From a virus, in the IMG/VR virus record IMGVR_UViG_3300031216_000071, positions 1-22,512 of that record: DNA of 22,512 nucleotides; one strand, written 5' to 3'. The notes beneath the pieces are model-generated. The model was not told the DNA's origin and ran no database searches. It saw nothing but the letters and a program-made list of their open reading frames with translations. Each line of letters begins with the position of its first letter. Within the stretch, counting starts at the first letter, position 1. Made by a program: the position numbers and the translations under genes. Positions 1 through 22,070 of the stretch are shown here, piece by piece.

Positions 1-310
1 TATGATATATAAACTTAAAATATATATAAATAATTAAAATAATTTAAATAATTAATAAATAATTTCCGCTTTGCTTAGACTGTCTAGATGTCTAATAAAA
101 TTACACCACATATGATATATAAACTTATAATATATATAAATAATTAAAATAATTTAAATAATTTAATAAATAATTTCCGCTTTGCTTAGACTGTCTAGAT
201 GTCTAATAAAATTACACCACATATGATATATAAACTTAAAATTTATATAAATAATTAAAATAATTTAAATAATTAATAAATAATTTCCGCTTTGCTTAGA
301 CTGTCTAGAT
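1..310. repeat. 110-bp AT-rich tandem repeats, about 2.8 copies
   Basis: Unit 1 is 1-110, unit 2 is 111-221 (one extra T) and unit 3 runs from 222 to 310, where it breaks off after CTGTCTAGAT. Units are nearly identical. Each has a long A/T block, a short GC-richer core (TTTCCGCTTTGCTTAGAC), a small palindrome (TAGACTGTCTA) and the box ATTACACCACATATGATATA. The array begins at the window edge, so more copies may lie upstream. No ORF fits. A diverged copy lies inverted at 14876-14961. Function is unknown; origin iterons, a packaging site or a regulatory region are possible. Confidence 0.95.
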
Positions 311-380
311 TGGTCATACACCTCCCTACCCCTACCCTATTCGCTTGTAGTCCGACCCAGCGGCGTCGTGGCGTTCTCTA
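311..380. other. GC-rich non-coding patch
   Basis: After the tandem repeats comes a C-rich stretch (CCTCCCTACCCCTACCC at about 321-337), then a patch at about 353-378 that is roughly 70% G+C by eye in an otherwise strongly AT-rich window. CGAC at 353-356 and GTCG at 365-368 could pair. I see no ORF and no tRNA fold. It separates two different repeat arrays and so is probably part of the same functional non-coding region. Confidence 0.5.
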
Positions 381-450
381 GCCTAATTATATATAATTCG
401 ACTCTAAAGCCTAATTACCTATAATTCGATACATAAGTCTAATCATTACA
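381..450. repeat. 28-bp tandem repeats, two full copies plus a degenerate third
   Basis: Units are 381-408 and 409-436, with a degenerate start of a third from 437 (GTCTAATCATTA). The shared core is GCCTAATTA, two variable bases, then TATAATTCGA. The first unit contains the perfect 14-nt palindrome AATTATATATAATT. Size and symmetry fit protein-binding sites such as operators or iterons, but no function can be assigned from sequence. Confidence 0.75.
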
Positions 451-491
451 TTAAATCGCTTACAAGGTCTTTAAAGCTAGCACCCGACCAC

Positions 492-697: not shown

Positions 698-933
698 CAG
701 AAACAGAATTTTTAAAACATCAAGGAGATTACTTCTATTTAAGGACAATGAAATATGTAGTAATGTACACAGCAGAAGATGAACTACAAAATATAAGAGA
801 GAATAATTTAGTATTATTTTTAACATTTGAACAAGGTAGATTCTCTATAAAATATAATGAACTAGCGGAAAAGGCAGAATTAGATTTAACTGAATTTAAA
901 AGAGAAAATCCAGAAATAGAATTTGATGCATAA
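694..933 (+). CDS. Conserved-looking small acidic protein, 79 aa, unknown function
   Basis: I do not recognise a family. The 79-aa product is soluble and rich in Glu and Asp. It has no membrane span or signal peptide, and its C-terminal half (about residues 50-79) looks helical and charged. The start overlaps the preceding stop by 4 nt (ATGA), and the stop TAA overlaps the next start (TAATG at 931-935). The gene is thus locked between a membrane peptide and a sigma-like protein in one translationally coupled unit. That tight coupling is the best evidence that it is real. A partner or regulator of the downstream sigma-like protein is possible but only a guess. Confidence 0.75.
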   Translation: MTETEFLKHQGDYFYLRTMKYVVMYTAEDELQNIRENNLVLFLTFEQGRFSIKYNELAEKAELDLTEFKRENPEIEFDA

Positions 934-1514
934 TGACAGTAGATATAACACAAGCACTCTCGGATAAGATGAAAGACTATTGCCTTATAAATGCAACACA
1001 GTATAGTAGTGATACATCCACGACAACAAGGGCAAATAGATACATAGCAGAAGAAGCACACTCCAAGGTAATGATTAAAATCTGGGAAAGAAATGTGGCT
1101 AATAAATGGGAAGAAAAACATTGTAACGATAACTACTATTTTATAATGTGTAAGATGACAATTCTTAATCAAATAACTACGGAAAACGCAAAGAAAAGAC
1201 AAAGTTATTTAGATTTTAATAACCTATCTCTAGATAAAGAATTAGACGAGGGTTATAAATTTGATTTGTCAGACGAAATAGATATACATAAAAAAGAAGA
1301 AGATGATTTATTCGAAACTAAATTGAAATTTGTAGTAAATACATTGTCCGATTGTGTACATATTACAGACTTTGATGTAGAAATATTTTACTTTTGTTTT
1401 CTTAAAAGAGGTACAATATTAACTGCTGCAAAGAATTTTAAATGTTCAATTCAAACAGTGAGTAATTCAAGATTAAGAATAAAAAACACAATTAAATATT
1501 TGTGGTTAAAATAA
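933..1514 (+). CDS. RNA polymerase sigma factor-like protein (ECF/sigma-70 type)
   Basis: The 193-aa length matches group 4 (ECF) sigma factors. About residues 35-90 resemble region 2: AEEAHSKVMIKIWERN matches the helix often written AEDLVQEVFLKIW, and CKMTILNQITTENAKKRQ matches the ARNLAID-RKRKR segment. An acidic linker follows (about 100-125). About residues 145-190 resemble region 4, with the helix-turn-helix LTAAKNFKCSIQTVSNSRLR. If active, it would direct RNA polymerase to phage promoters. Alternatively it is a divergent DNA-binding regulator. The start overlaps the upstream stop. It lies just upstream of the terminase genes and could drive late transcription. The call rests on pattern similarity, not on a search. 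Confidence 0.65.
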   Translation: MTVDITQALSDKMKDYCLINATQYSSDTSTTTRANRYIAEEAHSKVMIKIWERNVANKWEEKHCNDNYYFIMCKMTILNQITTENAKKRQSYLDFNNLSLDKELDEGYKFDLSDEIDIHKKEEDDLFETKLKFVVNTLSDCVHITDFDVEIFYFCFLKRGTILTAAKNFKCSIQTVSNSRLRIKNTIKYLWLK

Positions 1515-2256: not shown

Positions 2257-3468
2257 ATGGAACAAGTTGTATTTGATACAAAGTTTGAACCTCTATTTGG
2301 TGAAGACTCTAGATATTATATTATATCTGGCGGTAGAGGAAGTTCTAAATCATTTACAGTAGCATCTTATTTATTATTTAAAACTTTCCAAGACAACGAG
2401 GTTATATTATTCACCAGGTACACGATGGTGTCTGCCCATTTGTCAGTTATTCCAGAATTTGTAGAGAAAATAGAATTATTAGAATTAGAAGATTCTTTTA
2501 TTGTCAACAACACGGAAATAATAAATAAACAGACAGGTTCTAGAATTTTGTTTCGTGGATTAAAGACTGGTGCTAAGATTCAAACAGCAGCCTTGAAATC
2601 AATCGCTGGACTTACTACTTGGGTTCTTGATGAAGCGGAAGAACTACACGACCAAAAGTTATTCGATACAATTAACTTTTCTATAAGAACTGTTCTAGCA
2701 GAGAATGAAATCATACTAGTATTCAATCCCCCGACAAAAAAGCACTGGCTATACACTCGATGGTTTCTAGACAAGGGAGTAGAACCTGGCAGCAATATAA
2801 CCCTAGACAACATAACGTATATACACACATCTTATTTGGATAATTATGATAACCTTAACAAAGATATAATAAAAGAATTTGAAGAACTAAAGATAAAAGA
2901 TTATGATAAATATAACAATATTGTATTAGGTGGATTCAAAGATAAGGCAGAGGGATTAATCATAACAAATTGGGAAGTAGGAAAGTTTCCTAGTGTTCGT
3001 GCAGAGTATGGTTTGGACTTTGGATTTTCTAATGACCCTTCTGCTTTAGTTAAATGTCATATAGACCACGCTAAGAAGCTTTTATATGTTAAAGGTCTAT
3101 TATATCAAACAGGAATAATACCTTCTAAGCTTGCAACTCTAGTATCAAATTTATGTGGTAGAGACCTTATCATTGCAGATTCCGCATCACCTGACATTAT
3201 TGCTGAATTAAAAAATGGTGGGTGTAATATTAAACCAGTAAGCAAGGCAAAGATAGTTGATAGATTAGAAATAATGAGAGACTATAAAATCATTGTAGAC
3301 CCCTCATCAACCGATATTATAAATGAATTTAATGAATATTGCTGGGATGAGAACTACGCACTAGGGGATAGACCAGTCGACAAGTATAATCACTACGTAG
3401 ATGCGATTAATTACTATATACTATATAGACATCGAGTAAAGAAAGTGTCAAGATTTAGAATATCTTAA
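2257..3468 (+). CDS. terL: Terminase large subunit (ATPase and nuclease)
   Basis: The 403-aa protein has the full two-domain architecture of PBSX/Terminase_3-type large subunits. In the N-terminal ATPase domain, GGRGSSKS at residues 25-32 is the Walker A loop and WVLDEAEE at 122-129 is Walker B with the catalytic acid (D125, E126). The C-terminal RNase H-like nuclease has three acidic positions: D254 in GLDFGFSNDP, D308 in IIADSASPD and D382 in NHYVDAINYYI. The enzyme pumps DNA into the procapsid through the portal and cuts the concatemer. The start at 2257 follows an AATTAAT tract, 8 nt after the small subunit. Length is normal for the family and no key residue is missing. Confidence 0.96.
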   Translation: MEQVVFDTKFEPLFGEDSRYYIISGGRGSSKSFTVASYLLFKTFQDNEVILFTRYTMVSAHLSVIPEFVEKIELLELEDSFIVNNTEIINKQTGSRILFRGLKTGAKIQTAALKSIAGLTTWVLDEAEELHDQKLFDTINFSIRTVLAENEIILVFNPPTKKHWLYTRWFLDKGVEPGSNITLDNITYIHTSYLDNYDNLNKDIIKEFEELKIKDYDKYNNIVLGGFKDKAEGLIITNWEVGKFPSVRAEYGLDFGFSNDPSALVKCHIDHAKKLLYVKGLLYQTGIIPSKLATLVSNLCGRDLIIADSASPDIIAELKNGGCNIKPVSKAKIVDRLEIMRDYKIIVDPSSTDIINEFNEYCWDENYALGDRPVDKYNHYVDAINYYILYRHRVKKVSRFRIS

Positions 3469-12895: not shown

Positions 12896-14821
12896 ATGTC
12901 AATAATTAAAAAGATATTTGAATTTGTAGTAGATAATAAAGATGCTATAAAAGATGTTAAAGATACTGAAAAGGCTATAAAGGGTGCGACAGACGAGACC
13001 CAAAAGTTAAATAAAGAAACTAAGAAGACCCCTAAGCTTCTAAAGTTATTTAAGAATGGTATTAAAGGTATTGGTACCGCTTTAAAAGCTGCTGGTATAG
13101 GAATTGTCATTGCTTTATTTGCCAAGTTCACAGAAGCCTTAATGAAGAACCAGAAGGTAGTTGATGCCTTTAATGTGGTAATGGAAGTACTTTCCAGAGT
13201 AATGAATGACTTTGTTAGTTTCCTTATAGATAGTAGTGAACCTATATCAAAGTTCTTTACAGAAGCATTTGAGAATCCCAAGAAACTTATTAGTGACTTA
13301 GGAGACTCTATTAAAAAGAACCTTATTGAGAGATTTGATTCTTTTGTAGATACTTTAGGATTAGCAGGAAAAGCACTTAAACAAGTATTTGAAGGAGACT
13401 TTGCGGAGGCATGGGAAACAGCAAAAGAAGCAGGTAAGGAGGTAGTTGATGTTTATACAGGCGTAGATAACAGTTATGATAAGATAAGTAAGACATTAAA
13501 GAAAACGGGACTTGCTATTGCTAATTATGCTAAAGAGACTTATGATGCTGCTGATGCACAAGTTGAATTAAGAAAAAATGCCAAATTAGCAGAAGCACAA
13601 ATAGAACTGTCTATTCTACAATCACAAAAAGAAGTAGAACAGTTAAGACAAGTTAGAGATAACACAGAACTAACTATAGAAGCCAGAATAAAAGCTAACG
13701 ATAAGATAGCCTTAAAATTACAGGAACAAGGGAAGGAGGAAAAGAAACTTGCAAACATAAGACTAGCTACAGCAGAAGCAGACTTAGCAAATAATAAAGA
13801 CAATGTTGATTTGCAAATTGCTGTTAAAAATGCTAAAAGTAAAGTAGCAGACGTTGAAGAGAGAATTGCAGGCTTTGCTTCTGAACAATTGATTAATGAA
13901 GCTGCGTTAAGGGAAGAGAGAAGGACTAACTTACAGGAATTAAGAAAGATTGGTAAGTCTAAAAAGGAGTTAAGTAAGGCTGAATTAGAGACTACTCTAG
14001 AGAACCAAAGACTCTTAATAGAAAGAACTGTAGAGAATGAGGATGAAAAGAATGAACTGCTTCTAAAAGCAGCTATGCAGTATAATCAAGGTGTACAAGC
14101 ACTAGAAGATGAATCATTAGCTAAGTTACAAGAGATTAGAGATAAATATATTGATGAAGATAATATAGGTCTATCACAAGTTGAGATATTTGAAAGAGAA
14201 AGAGAAGTTCAAAGAGAAGCTTATGTAAAAGAACTAGAAGCATTAGAAGAATTTGAAGAAGAAAAAGCTGCATTACTTGCTAAGTTTGATAAAGATACAG
14301 TAAAAAAGAAAGTTGATGTAGAAAACAAGCAAGCACAAGCCACTAAAGATGCTAAGAATAAGGAAATACAAGCATATTTAGGTGCAACTAGTGCTATTGT
14401 ACAGTCACTTGGACAAGGTAGTATAGCTGCTAAAGGATTTGCTATTGCTGAGTCTGCATTTAATACCTACTTAGCTATTACTAAAACATTATCTGCATTT
14501 GCTGGAGTACCAGTACCAGGCTATGCTATTGCACAAGCAGTTGCTACAGGAGTATTTGGTTTATTACAAGTAGGTAAGATTGCATCTACTGACCCTACTA
14601 CTGGTGCTGGACCTGCATCTAGTGGTGGTGTAAGAGGTGCTGGTAATACTATATCTACTGGGCCTAGATTTGATACTGTAGGAGATTCAGAAGGTGTAAG
14701 AAATGCCCAGAATGAAGAGTCTAGGGATAATACTCCAAGAGAGACTTATGTTGTATCAGGTAAAGTAACAAACCAACAAGATTTAGATAGAAATAAACAA
14801 AACAACTCAAGATTTGTATAG
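12896..14821 (+). CDS. Tail tape measure protein
   Basis: The 641-aa protein has the features of a tape measure. The N-terminal 55 residues are charged and coiled. A hydrophobic helix follows (about 60-82: AAGIGIVIALFAKFTEALM), then long alanine-, lysine- and glutamate-rich coiled coils at about 215-490. A second hydrophobic glycine/alanine-rich segment is at about 495-560 (FAGVPVPGYAIAQAVATGVFG). The C-terminus is a disordered Gly/Asn/Arg-rich tail (PASSGGVRGAGN). Tape measures set tail length at roughly 0.15 nm per residue, so a tail of about 95 nm is inferred. The gene is unusually placed after the tail-tip genes and far from its chaperone. A hairpin and long gap follow, marking the end of this transcription unit. 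Confidence 0.85.
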   Translation: MSIIKKIFEFVVDNKDAIKDVKDTEKAIKGATDETQKLNKETKKTPKLLKLFKNGIKGIGTALKAAGIGIVIALFAKFTEALMKNQKVVDAFNVVMEVLSRVMNDFVSFLIDSSEPISKFFTEAFENPKKLISDLGDSIKKNLIERFDSFVDTLGLAGKALKQVFEGDFAEAWETAKEAGKEVVDVYTGVDNSYDKISKTLKKTGLAIANYAKETYDAADAQVELRKNAKLAEAQIELSILQSQKEVEQLRQVRDNTELTIEARIKANDKIALKLQEQGKEEKKLANIRLATAEADLANNKDNVDLQIAVKNAKSKVADVEERIAGFASEQLINEAALREERRTNLQELRKIGKSKKELSKAELETTLENQRLLIERTVENEDEKNELLLKAAMQYNQGVQALEDESLAKLQEIRDKYIDEDNIGLSQVEIFEREREVQREAYVKELEALEEFEEEKAALLAKFDKDTVKKKVDVENKQAQATKDAKNKEIQAYLGATSAIVQSLGQGSIAAKGFAIAESAFNTYLAITKTLSAFAGVPVPGYAIAQAVATGVFGLLQVGKIASTDPTTGAGPASSGGVRGAGNTISTGPRFDTVGDSEGVRNAQNEESRDNTPRETYVVSGKVTNQQDLDRNKQNNSRFV

Positions 14822-14824
14822 AAC

Positions 14825-14857
14825 GCTAACACTTCGCCTAGGGGCTTGTTGGCTTTT
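14825..14857 (+). terminator. Probable intrinsic terminator after the tape measure gene
   Basis: GCTAACA (14825-14831) pairs with TGTTGGC (14847-14853), with further GC-rich pairing possible in the loop (GCCTAGGGGC). TTTT follows at 14854-14857. It begins 4 nt after the stop codon. The T-tract is short. Confidence 0.6.
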
Positions 14858-14875
14858 ATTGGAGGTGGGTAAATA

Positions 14876-14961
14876 AAGGGAAATATTAATTTATTTATTT
14901 ATTTAATTATTACACATATATTTAAAGGTTTATATATCATATGTGGTGTAATTCTAGACAA
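14876..14961 (-). repeat. Diverged inverted copy of the 110-bp repeat
   Basis: Read on the minus strand it gives TGTCTA, then ATTACACCACATATGATATA and TAAAC, then an A/T block ending in ATATTTCCCTTT. In the units at 1-310 the same order is TGTCTA, the identical box, an A/T block and AATAATTTCCGCTTT. The box is identical over 25 nt; the rest is diverged and has small indels. Confidence 0.85.
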
Positions 14962-15020
14962 GGTAAACAATCACACATCACAGAATAATAAGATAAATAA
15001 GACAAACAATATACAAGGAA

Positions 15021-15037
15021 ATAACAAGGCAATACCA
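15021..15037. repeat. 17-nt direct repeat shared by both large gaps (copy B)
   Basis: ATAACAAGGCAATACCA differs at one position from 492-508 and has the same orientation. It lies 132 nt before the start of the first head-module gene. Confidence 0.6.
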
Positions 15038-15155
15038 TAGTCAACCATTTACCTCCCCTTTTTTACATACCTTACTCTATTAACCCTTATAAACACTGGT
15101 GTTCCCAAAGGTTAAAAAATGTAAAAAACACAGCTATAATATTAATTTATAAAAA

Positions 15156-15166
15156 TTGTTTTTAGG
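15156..15166 (+). promoter_or_regulatory. GTTTTTAG pre-start motif, copy 4
   Basis: TTGTTTTTAGG is followed by TATATGG with the ATG at 15170. It is the last element of the second large gap and stands in front of the head module. Confidence 0.4.
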
Positions 15167-15169
15167 TAT

Positions 15170-15646
15170 ATGGAGATAAATGCTAAGATAAAATTAGAAG
15201 ATAATAACGAAGACCCTATTCTAAGAATGGCAAGAAAATATGGATTTAAAATTCCTAACGATTTAGTTTTTGGAGAAATAGAATATATAGACTTAGCTAA
15301 GGGCGAGGAAACAGTATATAGATATGAAGGTCCAAGTCCAGAGAGAGATTTCTGTAAACAAATGATTCGTTTAGATAAATTCTATTCTAGAGAAGAAATT
15401 AACATAATGTCTTTCCAAGGTAGGAATAAATCATTTGGTCATAAAGGACAGAATTATAGTATTTGGAAATATTTGGGGGGACCATTTTGTAAACATCGGT
15501 GGGTGGTATATACTATAATAAGAAACAAAAGAAATAAAATAACACAAACTGTTAAAGTTAACAACGCACCAGGTATTTCGGGAGAAGCAGCAAATGCTAG
15601 CAATAGATTTAAGACTCACCCAAATGGACCTTTTAAAAATTTATAA
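15170..15646 (+). CDS. Conserved phage head-region protein with Cys/His motif, 158 aa
   Basis: The function is not established. The region from about residue 46 contains YRYEGPSPERDFCKQMI, DKFYSREEINIMSFQG and IWKYLGGPFCKHRWVVY. A similar string (G-P-x-x-R-x-F-C, Y-S-R-x-x-I, G-G-x-x-C-x-H-x-W) recurs, as I recall, in proteins next to the protease or portal of Bacteroidota phages, sometimes as the C-terminal part of a longer head protein. The cysteines and histidine could bind zinc. The short length and the HNH gene just downstream leave open that this is one part of a formerly longer gene. The C-terminus (ASNRFKTHPNGPFKNL) looks disordered. It opens the head module after the large gap. Confidence 0.65.
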   Translation: MEINAKIKLEDNNEDPILRMARKYGFKIPNDLVFGEIEYIDLAKGEETVYRYEGPSPERDFCKQMIRLDKFYSREEINIMSFQGRNKSFGHKGQNYSIWKYLGGPFCKHRWVVYTIIRNKRNKITQTVKVNNAPGISGEAANASNRFKTHPNGPFKNL

Positions 15647-15649
15647 TAT

Positions 15650-16438
15650 ATGAAAAAATGTACTAAGTGTAAAATAGAAAAGGAAATTATAGAATTTTCT
15701 AAAGATAAACAAAAAAAAGATGGATATAGACCATCTTGTAAATCTTGTAATAATAGAAATGCTAATAAAATGGTTGATATAGACAGAGAGAGATTAAGGC
15801 TTGTTGGTATTGAATTTTTAAAAAACAATCCCGAATATATAAAAACTTGTGCAATTTGTAAAGAAAATTTAGACCATAGTAGATTTCATAAAAATTACAA
15901 ATCAAAAGATGGGTTAGGGTATAAATGTAAAGTATGTCAAAACCAATATATGAAAGACAATAAAGAACATTTAAAGAAAAAAAGAATTGAATATGTAAAA
16001 AATAACAGAAAAAAAATAAGAACTACCAAAAGAAAACGACATATGGAAAGAATGAGTACAGACTCTCTTTATAATTTTGAAATGAGAACTAGGAAAATGA
16101 TATATAACTCGTTCTATCGTGGTGGATATACTAAAAATAGCAAGGCAAGTGAATTAATTGGTCTTAATTATAATGATTTAATGATATGGTTAAATGATAA
16201 AGCATCAAATGGTCTTAATCTTAATTTAGATAAAATACATATAGACCACGTTATACCAATAGGATTGTGTAATAATGAAAGTGATATAAATACATTAAAT
16301 CATTTTAGTAATTTACAATTAATGAGTGAAAGTGAAAACATAATTAAGTCTAACACAGAACCCTCTTTTGAACAATTAAAAAGAGTTTTCAATAATCATA
16401 ATAATAAGGAAGAATTGTATAAAATAATTTTTAAATAA
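15650..16438 (+). CDS. Free-standing HNH endonuclease with two zinc-finger repeats
   Basis: The 262-aa protein has two tandem four-cysteine units: C4/C7/C30/C33 and C67/C70/C93/C96. Each contains a K-D-G-Y/L-x-x-x-C-K-x-C ending, so the unit is duplicated. A basic helical linker follows (about 100-135), then the HNH nuclease: IHIDHVIPIGL with H197, D199 and H200, N221 in HFSNLQLM, and N230 in SENIIKSN. Such endonucleases nick or cut DNA and are usually mobile genes in phages. It sits between two head genes in a 3-nt/15-nt fit, which is typical of an inserted homing-type gene. Its AT content and asparagine/lysine bias look higher than those of its neighbours by eye. Confidence 0.88.
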   Translation: MKKCTKCKIEKEIIEFSKDKQKKDGYRPSCKSCNNRNANKMVDIDRERLRLVGIEFLKNNPEYIKTCAICKENLDHSRFHKNYKSKDGLGYKCKVCQNQYMKDNKEHLKKKRIEYVKNNRKKIRTTKRKRHMERMSTDSLYNFEMRTRKMIYNSFYRGGYTKNSKASELIGLNYNDLMIWLNDKASNGLNLNLDKIHIDHVIPIGLCNNESDINTLNHFSNLQLMSESENIIKSNTEPSFEQLKRVFNNHNNKEELYKIIFK

Positions 16439-16453
16439 AAAATAAATAAAATA

Positions 16454-17647
16454 ATGGAAAAAAAGACATACAAAATAGATTGGGATAGTAATGAAGATGG
16501 TATTTTATACGGTGTATCACTAGTAAACAATCCCGCAAATCAATATGAGTACATAGAATTTTCAGAAGAACAAACTAAAATAATGCTAGCGGATGATAAA
16601 AAGAAATTACTTGCTGGGGTTGTATTAGTTCCAGACCAAAAAATACCTAGATTCACTAAAGAAAGAGGTGAGTTTAATATCGTATTTGATAAGCAAACTA
16701 TTGAAAAGCTATCACATAATTTCCTATCACAAGAAGGGTTCAATAAAAACAACTGGTACAATCACGATAAGAATAATAAAATAGATAATAGTGTTATAGT
16801 GGAGTCGTGGTTACTTAGTTCAGAGACACAAGATAAAGCTATTGCATTGGGTTACAAGGACTTACCTTTAGGAACGTGGTGTATTGTTATGAAATTAAGT
16901 GATGATGGATATACAGAATATATTGAAACGGGTAAGGCTAAGGGCTTTAGTATTGATTCCTATTTAAAATTAGAGGAAATTATGTTTTCAGATATAGAAG
17001 AAGAAGTACCGACTAAAGAAGAAACTATTAAAAATAAAATAACACAAAATATGAAAAATTATCTTAAAGAATTTTTAAAATTCTCTTTATCAAAAGAAGA
17101 GGAAAAAGAAGAAGTTAAAATGTTAGAAATTCCACAAGAGGAAGGAGAAGCATTAACAGTAGCATCACTAGAAGAAGGACAAATGGTAATGAGAGGTGAA
17201 GAAGTAATCTCAAATTCAGAATTTACATTTGAAGGTAAAGTTTATAAGACAGACGAAGCTGGAATGATATCACAAATTAGTGATGTTGAAGCAGAACCAG
17301 AAGTAGAACTAGAAGAAGAAGAAAAGAAAGATGAAATGTCATTAGAAGACCAGAAGGCTGAACTTTTCAAAATGCTAGATGAAAATCCAGAAATCGAAAA
17401 TATGATGAAGGAAAGATATGGTAAAGAAGAAGATAAGAAAGAAAGTCTTGAAATGTCTGCAAAGCTTAAAAGAGAAAATGATACTATCAAATTAGATTTA
17501 GAAAAAAAGATAGAAGCATTAGAATTAGAATTAGAAAATGCACCAAATACTGGTAAGTTCAAATCACAAGAAATTAATTTGAATGAAAGAAAATCTGAAA
17601 GTATGATTGAGGCATTGACAAGAATATCAAAAACAGTAAATAAATAA
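16454..17647 (+). CDS. XkdF-like prohead protease fused to a scaffold-like domain
   Basis: The 397-aa protein has two parts. Residues 1-185 match XkdF-type prohead serine protease: the start DGILYGVSLVNNPANQYEY is typical, followed by LLAGVVLVPDQKIPR, then WYNHDKNN with H104, and GKAKGFSIDSYL with S166 as likely catalytic residues. Residues 200-397 are acidic, lysine- and glutamate-rich, with predicted coiled coil (about 330-365), as in scaffolding proteins. A protease-scaffold fusion would nucleate the procapsid and then digest the scaffold. An in-frame ATG at 17051 (M200), preceded by AACACAAAAT, could produce scaffold alone, as phage lambda does with Nu3. It lies directly before the major capsid gene, the expected position. 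Confidence 0.82.
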   Translation: MEKKTYKIDWDSNEDGILYGVSLVNNPANQYEYIEFSEEQTKIMLADDKKKLLAGVVLVPDQKIPRFTKERGEFNIVFDKQTIEKLSHNFLSQEGFNKNNWYNHDKNNKIDNSVIVESWLLSSETQDKAIALGYKDLPLGTWCIVMKLSDDGYTEYIETGKAKGFSIDSYLKLEEIMFSDIEEEVPTKEETIKNKITQNMKNYLKEFLKFSLSKEEEKEEVKMLEIPQEEGEALTVASLEEGQMVMRGEEVISNSEFTFEGKVYKTDEAGMISQISDVEAEPEVELEEEEKKDEMSLEDQKAELFKMLDENPEIENMMKERYGKEEDKKESLEMSAKLKRENDTIKLDLEKKIEALELELENAPNTGKFKSQEINLNERKSESMIEALTRISKTVNK

Positions 17648-19677: not shown

Positions 19678-20790
19678 ATGAACAAAATAGAAGTATTTAA
19701 TTTAAACTCATACAGCCGTGTGAATCCCCAATCATTACTACAGATAGGTAATAAGTATTTGATGAACGGACCAGACAATAATTTCTTTAATTTAGTCGAG
19801 GAAAGATATTTGGGAAGTCCTAGTCTTCAAGCAGTTATAGATAATTACGTTAGATATATTCTAGGGGAAGGTCTTATAGCTGAAGAAGGAATTACCCAAG
19901 AGAGATTAGATTCTATATTATCTAAGAAGGATTTAAGAAGATTAGTTAAGCAATATAAGCTACAAGGTAATGCACCATTGCAGATCATATATAACAAAGT
20001 AGGACCACAAAAGGTAACTAAAATACACTCATATTTTGCTAGACAAGTAGCAGTTAATCGCCCAAAAGATATGATGGATGACCCTAACTCGTACTGGTTC
20101 TCATATGACTGGAAGCTTAGAGGTAGATTTAGACCTCAATTAATTCCCTCGTTTAAGTGTGGAGTAGACAAGGAAACTGAAATGTATTATTCACAAAGTG
20201 ATTCAGAACAACCATTTTTTAGTTTACCCGATTACTTTTCGTGCCTACAATATGCACAGGTTGAGGAAGAAATATCTAACTACTACATAAAACATATTCA
20301 GAATAATTTCTCGGCAGGTAAAATAGTCAATATTAATCAAGGTACAGCAATTACGGAAGAAGCAGAAGAAGATGTTAAGATGGATATGAAAGCTAAGCTG
20401 ACTGGTTCGACAAATGCGGGTCAAATAATCGTAAGTATCAACGAAAATAAAGAAAATGCTACAACTGTTGATAATATAGAAATTATAGATGCGTACCAGC
20501 AATTCACGACACTGGCTGAACAGGCTAACGCTAAGATACTATTGTCGAATAAGGTAACATCGCCAAGTCTTTTCGGACATAATGTAGCTACTGGATTCTC
20601 TAGTGATTCTGAACAAATGAAGACTGCATTAAAGACTTTATATCGTTCACAAATAAACCCTATGCGTGAAGATATACTAAATGATTTACAAGAAATTCTA
20701 AAAGTAGGATATCCCGATGCCAAGATAGGCTTTAAAGATTTTGAGGAACTAACTGAAATAGATGATATCGAAAATAAAAATAAAATATAA
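19678..20790 (+). CDS. Portal protein
   Basis: The 370-aa protein has features of PBSX/SPP1-type portals. FNLVEERYLGSPSLQAVIDNYVRYILGEG near the start resembles the region where subunits contact neighbours. QYKLQGNAPLQIIYN and KIHSYFARQVAVNRP follow as the clip/stem-side strands. SNYYIKHIQNNFSAGKIVN resembles the conserved F-x-x-x-N-x-F-x-P/S stem region. LSNKVTSPSLFGHNVATGFSSDSEQMKTA is the typical late-portal motif, with L-x-x-A-x-I-x-P-L/P and a helical C-terminus. The portal is the dodecameric vertex through which the terminase pumps DNA. At 370 aa it is on the short side but complete. Its gene lies after the capsid gene, the reverse of the usual order. Confidence 0.8.
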   Translation: MNKIEVFNLNSYSRVNPQSLLQIGNKYLMNGPDNNFFNLVEERYLGSPSLQAVIDNYVRYILGEGLIAEEGITQERLDSILSKKDLRRLVKQYKLQGNAPLQIIYNKVGPQKVTKIHSYFARQVAVNRPKDMMDDPNSYWFSYDWKLRGRFRPQLIPSFKCGVDKETEMYYSQSDSEQPFFSLPDYFSCLQYAQVEEEISNYYIKHIQNNFSAGKIVNINQGTAITEEAEEDVKMDMKAKLTGSTNAGQIIVSINENKENATTVDNIEIIDAYQQFTTLAEQANAKILLSNKVTSPSLFGHNVATGFSSDSEQMKTALKTLYRSQINPMREDILNDLQEILKVGYPDAKIGFKDFEELTEIDDIENKNKI

Positions 20791-20792
20791 AT

Positions 20793-22070
20793 ATGGCAAC
20801 ATTATTAATTAAGCAAGATGATATAAGTAAGAATACACCAATCGGTGGTAATGTACAGACTGCTAGGTTATTACCTGCTATCAAAGCAGCACAATTAAAT
20901 AACATTAAGCCTTTGTTAGAATATGATTTATATAATAAAATAGTAACTGAATTTTCTGACGATACTTTAGCAAATCAATATTTGGAACTGTATGAAGATT
21001 ACATAGCACCGATGATAATTCACCTGTCTGCAAGTATTTACTTTGGATATGGTGCATATTCTATAAGTGACGCAGGTATTTTTAAATCTATAACCAAAGA
21101 TGCAGAAGGGATAAATAAAGATGAGGTTGATTATTTGGTCAAAGCACAATATGCTACATACAAAGATTATAAGAGAGAATTTTATTCATTTATTAACACT
21201 AATTCAGCATTGTTTCCTGAATGGACTAAAAAAGAACCAAAAATACAGAAGCACGGTGGGTGGCTGTTGGGTACTTCTAAGGGAAGAAATGGTAAATCAA
21301 CTAATGGTAGTTTTCCAACTGTTGAATGGGGTAATATAAATGGCACTTTGGCTAACCAAATAGATTTAACAAGTGCGATAGATTTAAAGGCTAATGCACT
21401 TGATATAAGCCTTGTAGGATTTAGTGGAGAATATTCTGACCTACTTAATATACCGCCTATAACTACTGACTGGGGTGAGATTGGTGGTACTTTAACTACA
21501 CAAACAGACTTAATAGATGCCTTGAATCTAAAGGCTAATGCATTAGATGTAAGCCTTGTAGGATTCAGTGGAGAATATAATGATTTACTTAATAAACCAA
21601 CCATAGCAAGCGATTGGGGGTTGATTGGTGGCACTTTGTCTAATCAGACAGACTTAATAGATGCTTTGAATTTAAAGGCTAATGCTGCTTCTTTAAGCAA
21701 TGTTGCTACTAGTGGAGAATATTCAGACTTACTTAATACACCTATTTTTAAAACTATAAATACAGAATCTCTTATAGGTCCTGGTGATATTGTAATACCC
21801 GTAGATTTCAAAACTATTAATAATTTATCGATTCTTGGTACAGGAAATATACAGTTAAACTCTGCTGCGTTACTTAAAGCAAATAACCTTTCTGACTTAC
21901 AAGACCTAGCAGCAGCACAGGCTATATTAGAGTTTGATAAGAAAGTGTCAACTGACACAAATAACGAACCTCCTGGAAGTGATAAAGTAGTAAATATGGT
22001 GTCGTTAACACAAGCAGAATATGACGCAGGTACGCCAGTAGCTACTACATTTTATATCATAAAGGACTAA
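20793..22070 (+). CDS. Head-tail connector fused to fibre-like repeats
   Basis: Residues 1-145 resemble the Bacteroidota head-tail connector family (DUF6712-like): MATLLIKQDDISKNTPIGGN, the stretch AAQLNNIKPLLEYDLYNKIV, and LSASIYFGYGAYSISDAGIF. After a basic Gly/Ser/Asn linker (about 155-175) come three 48-residue repeats starting at W179, W227 and W275. Each has the form W-G-x-I-x-G-T-L-x-x-Q-x-D-L followed by LKANA and SGEYxDLLN, like the SYNDLxNKP repeats of phage fibres. The C-terminal part contains FKTINxxSLIGxGDI and FKTINNLSILGTGNI elements and ends TTFYIIKD. The fusion would place a fibre at the neck or collar. A frameshift artefact joining two genes seems unlikely because the frame is continuous. 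Confidence 0.8.
   Translation: MATLLIKQDDISKNTPIGGNVQTARLLPAIKAAQLNNIKPLLEYDLYNKIVTEFSDDTLANQYLELYEDYIAPMIIHLSASIYFGYGAYSISDAGIFKSITKDAEGINKDEVDYLVKAQYATYKDYKREFYSFINTNSALFPEWTKKEPKIQKHGGWLLGTSKGRNGKSTNGSFPTVEWGNINGTLANQIDLTSAIDLKANALDISLVGFSGEYSDLLNIPPITTDWGEIGGTLTTQTDLIDALNLKANALDVSLVGFSGEYNDLLNKPTIASDWGLIGGTLSNQTDLIDALNLKANAASLSNVATSGEYSDLLNTPIFKTINTESLIGPGDIVIPVDFKTINNLSILGTGNIQLNSAALLKANNLSDLQDLAAAQAILEFDKKVSTDTNNEPPGSDKVVNMVSLTQAEYDAGTPVATTFYIIKD
21327..21758 (+). repeat. Three in-frame 144-bp repeats in the connector-fibre gene
   Basis: Units start at 21327, 21471 and 21615. The first two share AGCCTTGTAGGATT(T/C)AGTGGA and CTAATGCA segments; the third is more diverged (AATGTTGCTACTAGTGGA). 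They encode the W-G...L-L-N-x-P units of the putative fibre. Repeats of this length may recombine and change fibre length. Confidence 0.85.

Follow-up and report, generated by a model that had tools for sequence, protein, structure and literature searches.

A 25-nt box repeated in the two largest intergenic gaps of a flavobacterial-type phage contains a 20-nt core that is conserved beyond chance. The box is most likely a putative protein landing site controlling viral DNA replication or gene expression, and the element as a whole is confined to certain lineages and belongs to a generally familiar type of control element, with a putative function. The first-pass annotation of this DNA had left origin, packaging, recombination and operator functions all open, and our results narrowed them no further than to a DNA element that acts in cis and probably binds a protein. 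In the literature that we searched, no such control sequences were described for P12024-like phages. The 20-nt word, exact across distant members and present in either orientation at one gene boundary, provides a precise target for locating an origin or a phage-specific regulator, and could be used as bait to isolate the protein that recognizes the box.

Virus and gene layout

The window analyzed here is a whole IMG/VR record of 22,512 bases, which is linear and probably a fragment. The virus is a P12024-like siphovirus of the flavobacterial type. Its nearest isolates are the Nonlabens phages P12024S and P12024L (Inhavirus), with 46.5% identity for the large terminase subunit, and the gene order terminase-tail-head is common to all three. 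The main genes are listed below; tail protein genes and a gene in the capsid position are also present, and all listed genes are on the plus strand.

933..1514, plus strand: gene for a likely ECF-sigma-like protein, two small genes downstream of gap 1
2257-3468, plus strand: terminase large subunit gene
12896-14821, plus strand: gene for a tape-measure-like protein, named from position and length (PHROG match 'virion structural protein')
16454-17647, plus strand: head protease gene
19678-20790, plus strand: portal gene

The box in the two largest gaps of the window

The two largest gaps in the window, gap 1 (at least 526 nt) and gap 2 (348 nt), are followed in size by a gap of 97 nt. As previously proposed, the repeat and its minus-strand copy sit in exactly these two gaps, each of which opens a gene module: gap 1 lies before the packaging/tail genes and gap 2 before the head genes. 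The tandem repeat at positions 1 to 310 proved to be real by TRF analysis (period 111, 2.8 copies, 97% matches). It runs off the left edge of the contig and thus has at least three units.

1..310, plus strand: tandem array of three head-to-tail 111-nt units
75-88, 186-199 and 296-309, plus strand: TTAGACTGTCTAGA, upstream of the box in each unit
100-124 and 211-235, plus strand: exact 25-nt box ATTACACCACATATGATATATAAAC; the window starts with a truncated copy (1-14)
15-65, 125..176 (52 nt) and 236-286, plus strand: A/T-only tracts after the box
354..487, plus strand: element X, about 130 nt
14822..15169: gap 2, from the tape-measure stop to the next gene
14871..14966, minus strand: single diverged repeat unit with the exact box at 14928-14952, an A/T run at 14881-14912, the TTTCCCTTT core and TGTCTAGA

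Each gap-1 unit consists of TTTCCGCTTTGC, TTAGACTGTCTAGA and the box, followed by an A/T-only tract of 51-52 nt. TTAGACTGTCTAGA contains an 11-nt dyad, TAGACTGTCTA; diverged forms precede the boxes of a sister phage (G002, see below). The three A/T tracts are the longest A/T-only runs in the window, whose three least stable 60-nt DNA stretches also fall in the array.

Outside the array, the 25-nt box recurs identically only at 14928-14952 on the minus strand, and scanning the window with up to three mismatches revealed no further matches (shuffles give 0.00), so that no box was found at random places beyond the two gaps. The longest exact inverted match between gap 1 and gap 2 is 26 nt, compared with a maximum of 17 nt in 2000 gap shuffles. 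The minus-strand order TGTCTAGA - box - A/T tract - TTTCCCTTT is retained over about 90 nt, and the A/T part has drifted, which agrees with the initial description. A short sequence, AACAAGGCA, occurs with similar flanks and in direct orientation in both window gaps (494-502 and 15023-15031, plus strand) and also in gap 1 of G002.

Element X, which is common to both gaps of G002, contains a degenerate 28-nt tandem direct repeat at 380-443. A structured RNA identity for X was ruled out by an Rfam search of the gaps, which gave no match, and by folding of X, which showed no unusual RNA fold (z-scores of +1.00 and -0.13 on its two strands). Exact-pattern searches for X, using narrow patterns, gave no match in contigs of viral or bacterial genomes. 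Gap 2 of the window has one decayed unit without X.

Occurrence of the box in close relatives

An exact box search of viral contigs identified two contigs beyond the window: G001, a near-identical strain, and G002, a collinear sister with roughly 64-80% DNA identity over longer aligned blocks. In gap 2 of G002, an exact box unit and a second one carrying three mismatches are spaced 95 nt apart and are followed by X, which is also found, inverted, at the left end of this contig. That end begins about where the last unit of the window stops, suggesting that both assemblies break at the array. The gap-1 array of G002 is itself off the contig, and the arrangement is best read as an inverted pair of array plus X that would flank the packaging/tail module. 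The two X copies of G002 share 90.6% identity, compared with 73-75% identity to the window X, which suggests that X was duplicated or homogenized within the G002 lineage.

Another contig, G005, likewise starts at gap 1. This raises the explanation that the gap-1 array is a terminase recognition (packaging) site, since the terminase genes are downstream of it and the assemblies of the window, G002 and G005 all start here. However, the contig starts are hundreds of bases apart, in agreement with assembly having broken off at a tandem A/T-rich repeat, and in two distant relatives (below) the box is at the tape-measure/head boundary, distant from the terminase gene. A packaging site is therefore very improbable. 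The G005 record contains the sigma-like gene and no box. A scan with the alignment of ORF 933-1514 for relatives having this flanking gene found G002 only. When the pattern CNCACATATNATATATAAA, which excludes the main box, was scanned, it matched the second copy of G002 alone among the known loci, together with 14 other contigs.

Conservation of the core in distant relatives

A slightly relaxed box search identified two more distant contigs, G003 and G004; the tape-measure protein of G004 is 34% identical overall to that of the window, and about 45% over the best stretch. Each has one exact 20-nt box, GCACCACATATGATATATAAAAC, on the plus strand directly behind the stop codon of the tape-measure gene and about 50 nt ahead of the head-protease start in sense orientation, and an A/T tract then follows, which could be merely a gene leader. 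These boxes are on the opposite strand to the gap-2 box of the window and G002. Thus, the tape-measure/head boundary is the place of the box in every contig found with GCACCACATATGATATATAAAAC (in the window also gap 1), and in the window, G002, G003 and G004 the A/T-rich tract invariably follows the box on the same side. According to our base-composition estimate, a 20-mer match by chance is expected at most about once across the collection, and a chance match at this particular boundary is much less likely still.

The near-identity of G003 and G004 begins about 150 nt before the end of the tape-measure gene and extends across the A/T tract, with diverged DNA on both sides. This island appears to be a sign of exchange at the tape-measure/head joint, and because it is shared, the two contigs were counted as one event rather than two. 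The earlier proposal of selection on the box is therefore supported by the same 20 nt within unrelated flanks in distant phages, but it is limited by the small number of independent lineages. The island could also mean that the box is an insertion or a recombination joint where modules meet, passed on by phage exchange and not kept for regulation. The bare junction of most relatives and the closer similarity of the two G002 X copies to each other than to the window X point in the same direction. On the other hand, no recombinase gene was found beside the box, the packaging/tail module lies the same way round in the window and G002 with no inversion, and the tandem array of the window is more than a joint; we consider this explanation unlikely. 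A XerCD/dif-like site was considered in view of a paper on flavobacterial phages that use dif (PMC9719478), and was dropped because, by eye, one arm alone resembles dif sequences.

In contrast with these carriers, 47 other tape-measure/next-gene junctions in the family have no box, and most of them are 20-60 nt long. These junctions include near-duplicates, as well as L049 (84% identical tape measure), L054 and L081/G005. With close relatives among the bare junctions, the box should be considered lineage-specific and not a family feature. The view that related phages would keep the box in these gaps thus held for G002, G003 and G004, but not for the 47 bare junctions. Elsewhere this junction is usually shorter than about 60 nt, so that the gap-2 element has the look of an insertion, and judging from this comparison it is apparently inserted, or retained, in some lineages only. 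In the incomplete records of the window, G002, G003 and G004, a profile scan placed convincing box sites in both window gaps, in gap 2 of G002 and once each in G003 and G004, and nowhere else.

Among isolated phages and plasmids, box matches were at chance level only. P12024S and P12024L resemble the window in gene order and in having extra DNA at the tape-measure/head boundary; however, they have no box, array or X, and this boundary contains minus-strand genes. The best profile match in P12024L (13.6 bits at 33472) is in the tape-measure/head boundary region and within the shuffle range, and is only suggestive. Comparison of the same region between P12024S (L048, ~32640-33540) and P12024L (L047, ~33440-33500) revealed an inserted DNA methyltransferase gene; the insert of P12024S lies between CGTTGT and ACAACACC(G/A)CATATAAAT repeats resembling integron attC sites. 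A tape-measure search of bacterial genomes yielded no confirmed case. Derivation of the box from an inverted tape-measure 3' end was rejected, as the match in L130 has five mismatches and such matches are common and were judged to be chance.

It is also conceivable that the element is A/T-rich repeat DNA copied between the gaps, with no role. The window units are 97% alike, so their tandem similarity may be recent, and most relatives lack the gap-2 box. Nevertheless, in the window, G002, G003 and G004 20-25 nt have stayed exact at one and the same boundary while the flanks have drifted, and we regard this explanation as improbable.

Possible functions of the box

Our tentative first choice is that the repeated unit is a cis-acting, iteron-like origin element, composed of a 20-25 bp asymmetric box and an A/T-rich tract of about 40-50 bp. 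A phage initiator would bind the boxes of the gap-1 array, the A/T tracts beside them would melt and replication would start; gap 2 would hold an inverted second copy, array-like with X in G002 and down to one unit in the window. Iteron origins have repeated initiator sites beside A/T-rich unwinding DNA (PMC10797057). The likeness to such origins (phage lambda ori with the O protein; plasmids RK2, F and P1) lies in asymmetric direct repeats beside easily melted A/T DNA: several direct repeats are present in gap 1 of the window (at least three units) and gap 2 of G002 (two), and the adjacent A/T-only tracts are 51-52 nt long. In contrast to known iterons, the A/T tract is within each unit, the spacing is 111 nt, an inverted copy is found at a distance of 14.6 kb, some sites consist of a single box (G003, G004 and gap 2 of the window), and the initiator is postulated. 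No initiator gene was recognized in the window, a fragment that lacks the replication module and the left flank of the array.

Several observations favor the origin reading. First, the 20-nt core is unbroken across distant lineages with differing flanks. Second, the array has the least stable DNA and a constant head-to-tail period of 111 nt. Finally, the array is accompanied by X, with its 28-nt degenerate direct repeat and lack of an RNA fold. On the other hand, the single box in G003, G004 and gap 2 of the window counts against an origin, as do the two places per genome, which would be unusual, the GC skew of the window, which gave no origin signal, and the two gaps, in which no DnaA-box match was found.

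The box might instead act as a promoter or operator for a regulator of the phage, for which the ECF-sigma-like protein is a plausible candidate, with the array controlling the packaging/tail operon and the gap-2 site the head operon. ORF 933-1514 matched the NCBIfam sigma70-ECF model over most of its length, though weakly and below the curated cut-off (E 0.01), as did its homologue in G005 (E 0.019, also below the cut-off). Its predicted structure has low confidence (mean pLDDT 60); the best Foldseek matches of this model were mostly sigma factors, none of them at E 0.001 or better. The ORF occupies about the position of gp35 in P12024L, a protein that scores above the cut-off of Pfam Sigma70_r2, and a direct profile comparison of the two gave no match. 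The product is likely sigma-like and may be considered a candidate reader of the box.

The location of this gene downstream of gap 1 and of the boxes ahead of gene modules resembles late promoters that depend on phage sigma factors, and the sense orientation and single-copy sites in G003 and G004, together with the dyad TAGACTGTCTA upstream of the box, are also consistent with a promoter or operator. In addition, the host-type -7 promoter motif TANNTTTG (consensus from PMC6847099) was not found in either gap. However, the orientation of the box is not tied to the genes: it is forward in gap 1 and in G003/G004 but reversed in gap 2 of both the window and G002, where it points away from the head genes and back into the tape-measure gene. 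Moreover, all 20 nt are conserved as one contiguous core with no variable spacer, almost every relative expresses these modules in the absence of the box, and G005 has the sigma-like gene without a box in its record. A promoter or operator is a close competitor of the origin reading and only slightly less likely. Asymmetric sites of repressor size in intergenic DNA are also known as the stoperators of mycobacteriophage L5, but those are numerous genome-wide, whereas the profile scan of our incomplete records found the box in two places in the window, and no repressor was seen.

Because a promoter should face its own genes in every lineage, the free orientation of the box favors an origin. Together with the unbroken 20-nt core and the A/T tract on the same side, it makes the origin-like element a somewhat better fit than a promoter, whereas the single-copy sites and the sigma-like gene near gap 1 fit a promoter or operator better. 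On either reading the element would be cis-acting DNA that binds a protein. Were it an origin, its inverted pairing in G002 would be an uncommon arrangement. It is rather doubtful that an inverted origin-like pair surrounds the packaging/tail module while the exact 20-nt core travels between diverged phages as a boundary element in either orientation.

Other observations on the window

A 158-aa protein (15170-15646), encoded directly after gap 2, matches the C-terminal part (442-516) of the portal family phrog_33693, and the portal gene at 19678-20790 matches only 15-364 of this family. Unless misassigned, a portal domain may have been detached and moved to 15170-15646. An endonuclease VII/HNH-type gene is present at 15650-16438, and the corresponding place in G002 has no such gene. 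The gene at 20793-22070 begins with a DUF6712 domain and contains three in-frame 144-nt (48-aa) repeats at 21317-21748. Finally, the motif TGTTTTTAG was observed just ahead of gene starts at 1520, 4200, 12741, 15157 and 19250 (plus strand) in the window, and was found in G002 and G005 too; it appears to be a small conserved intergenic element of operons.
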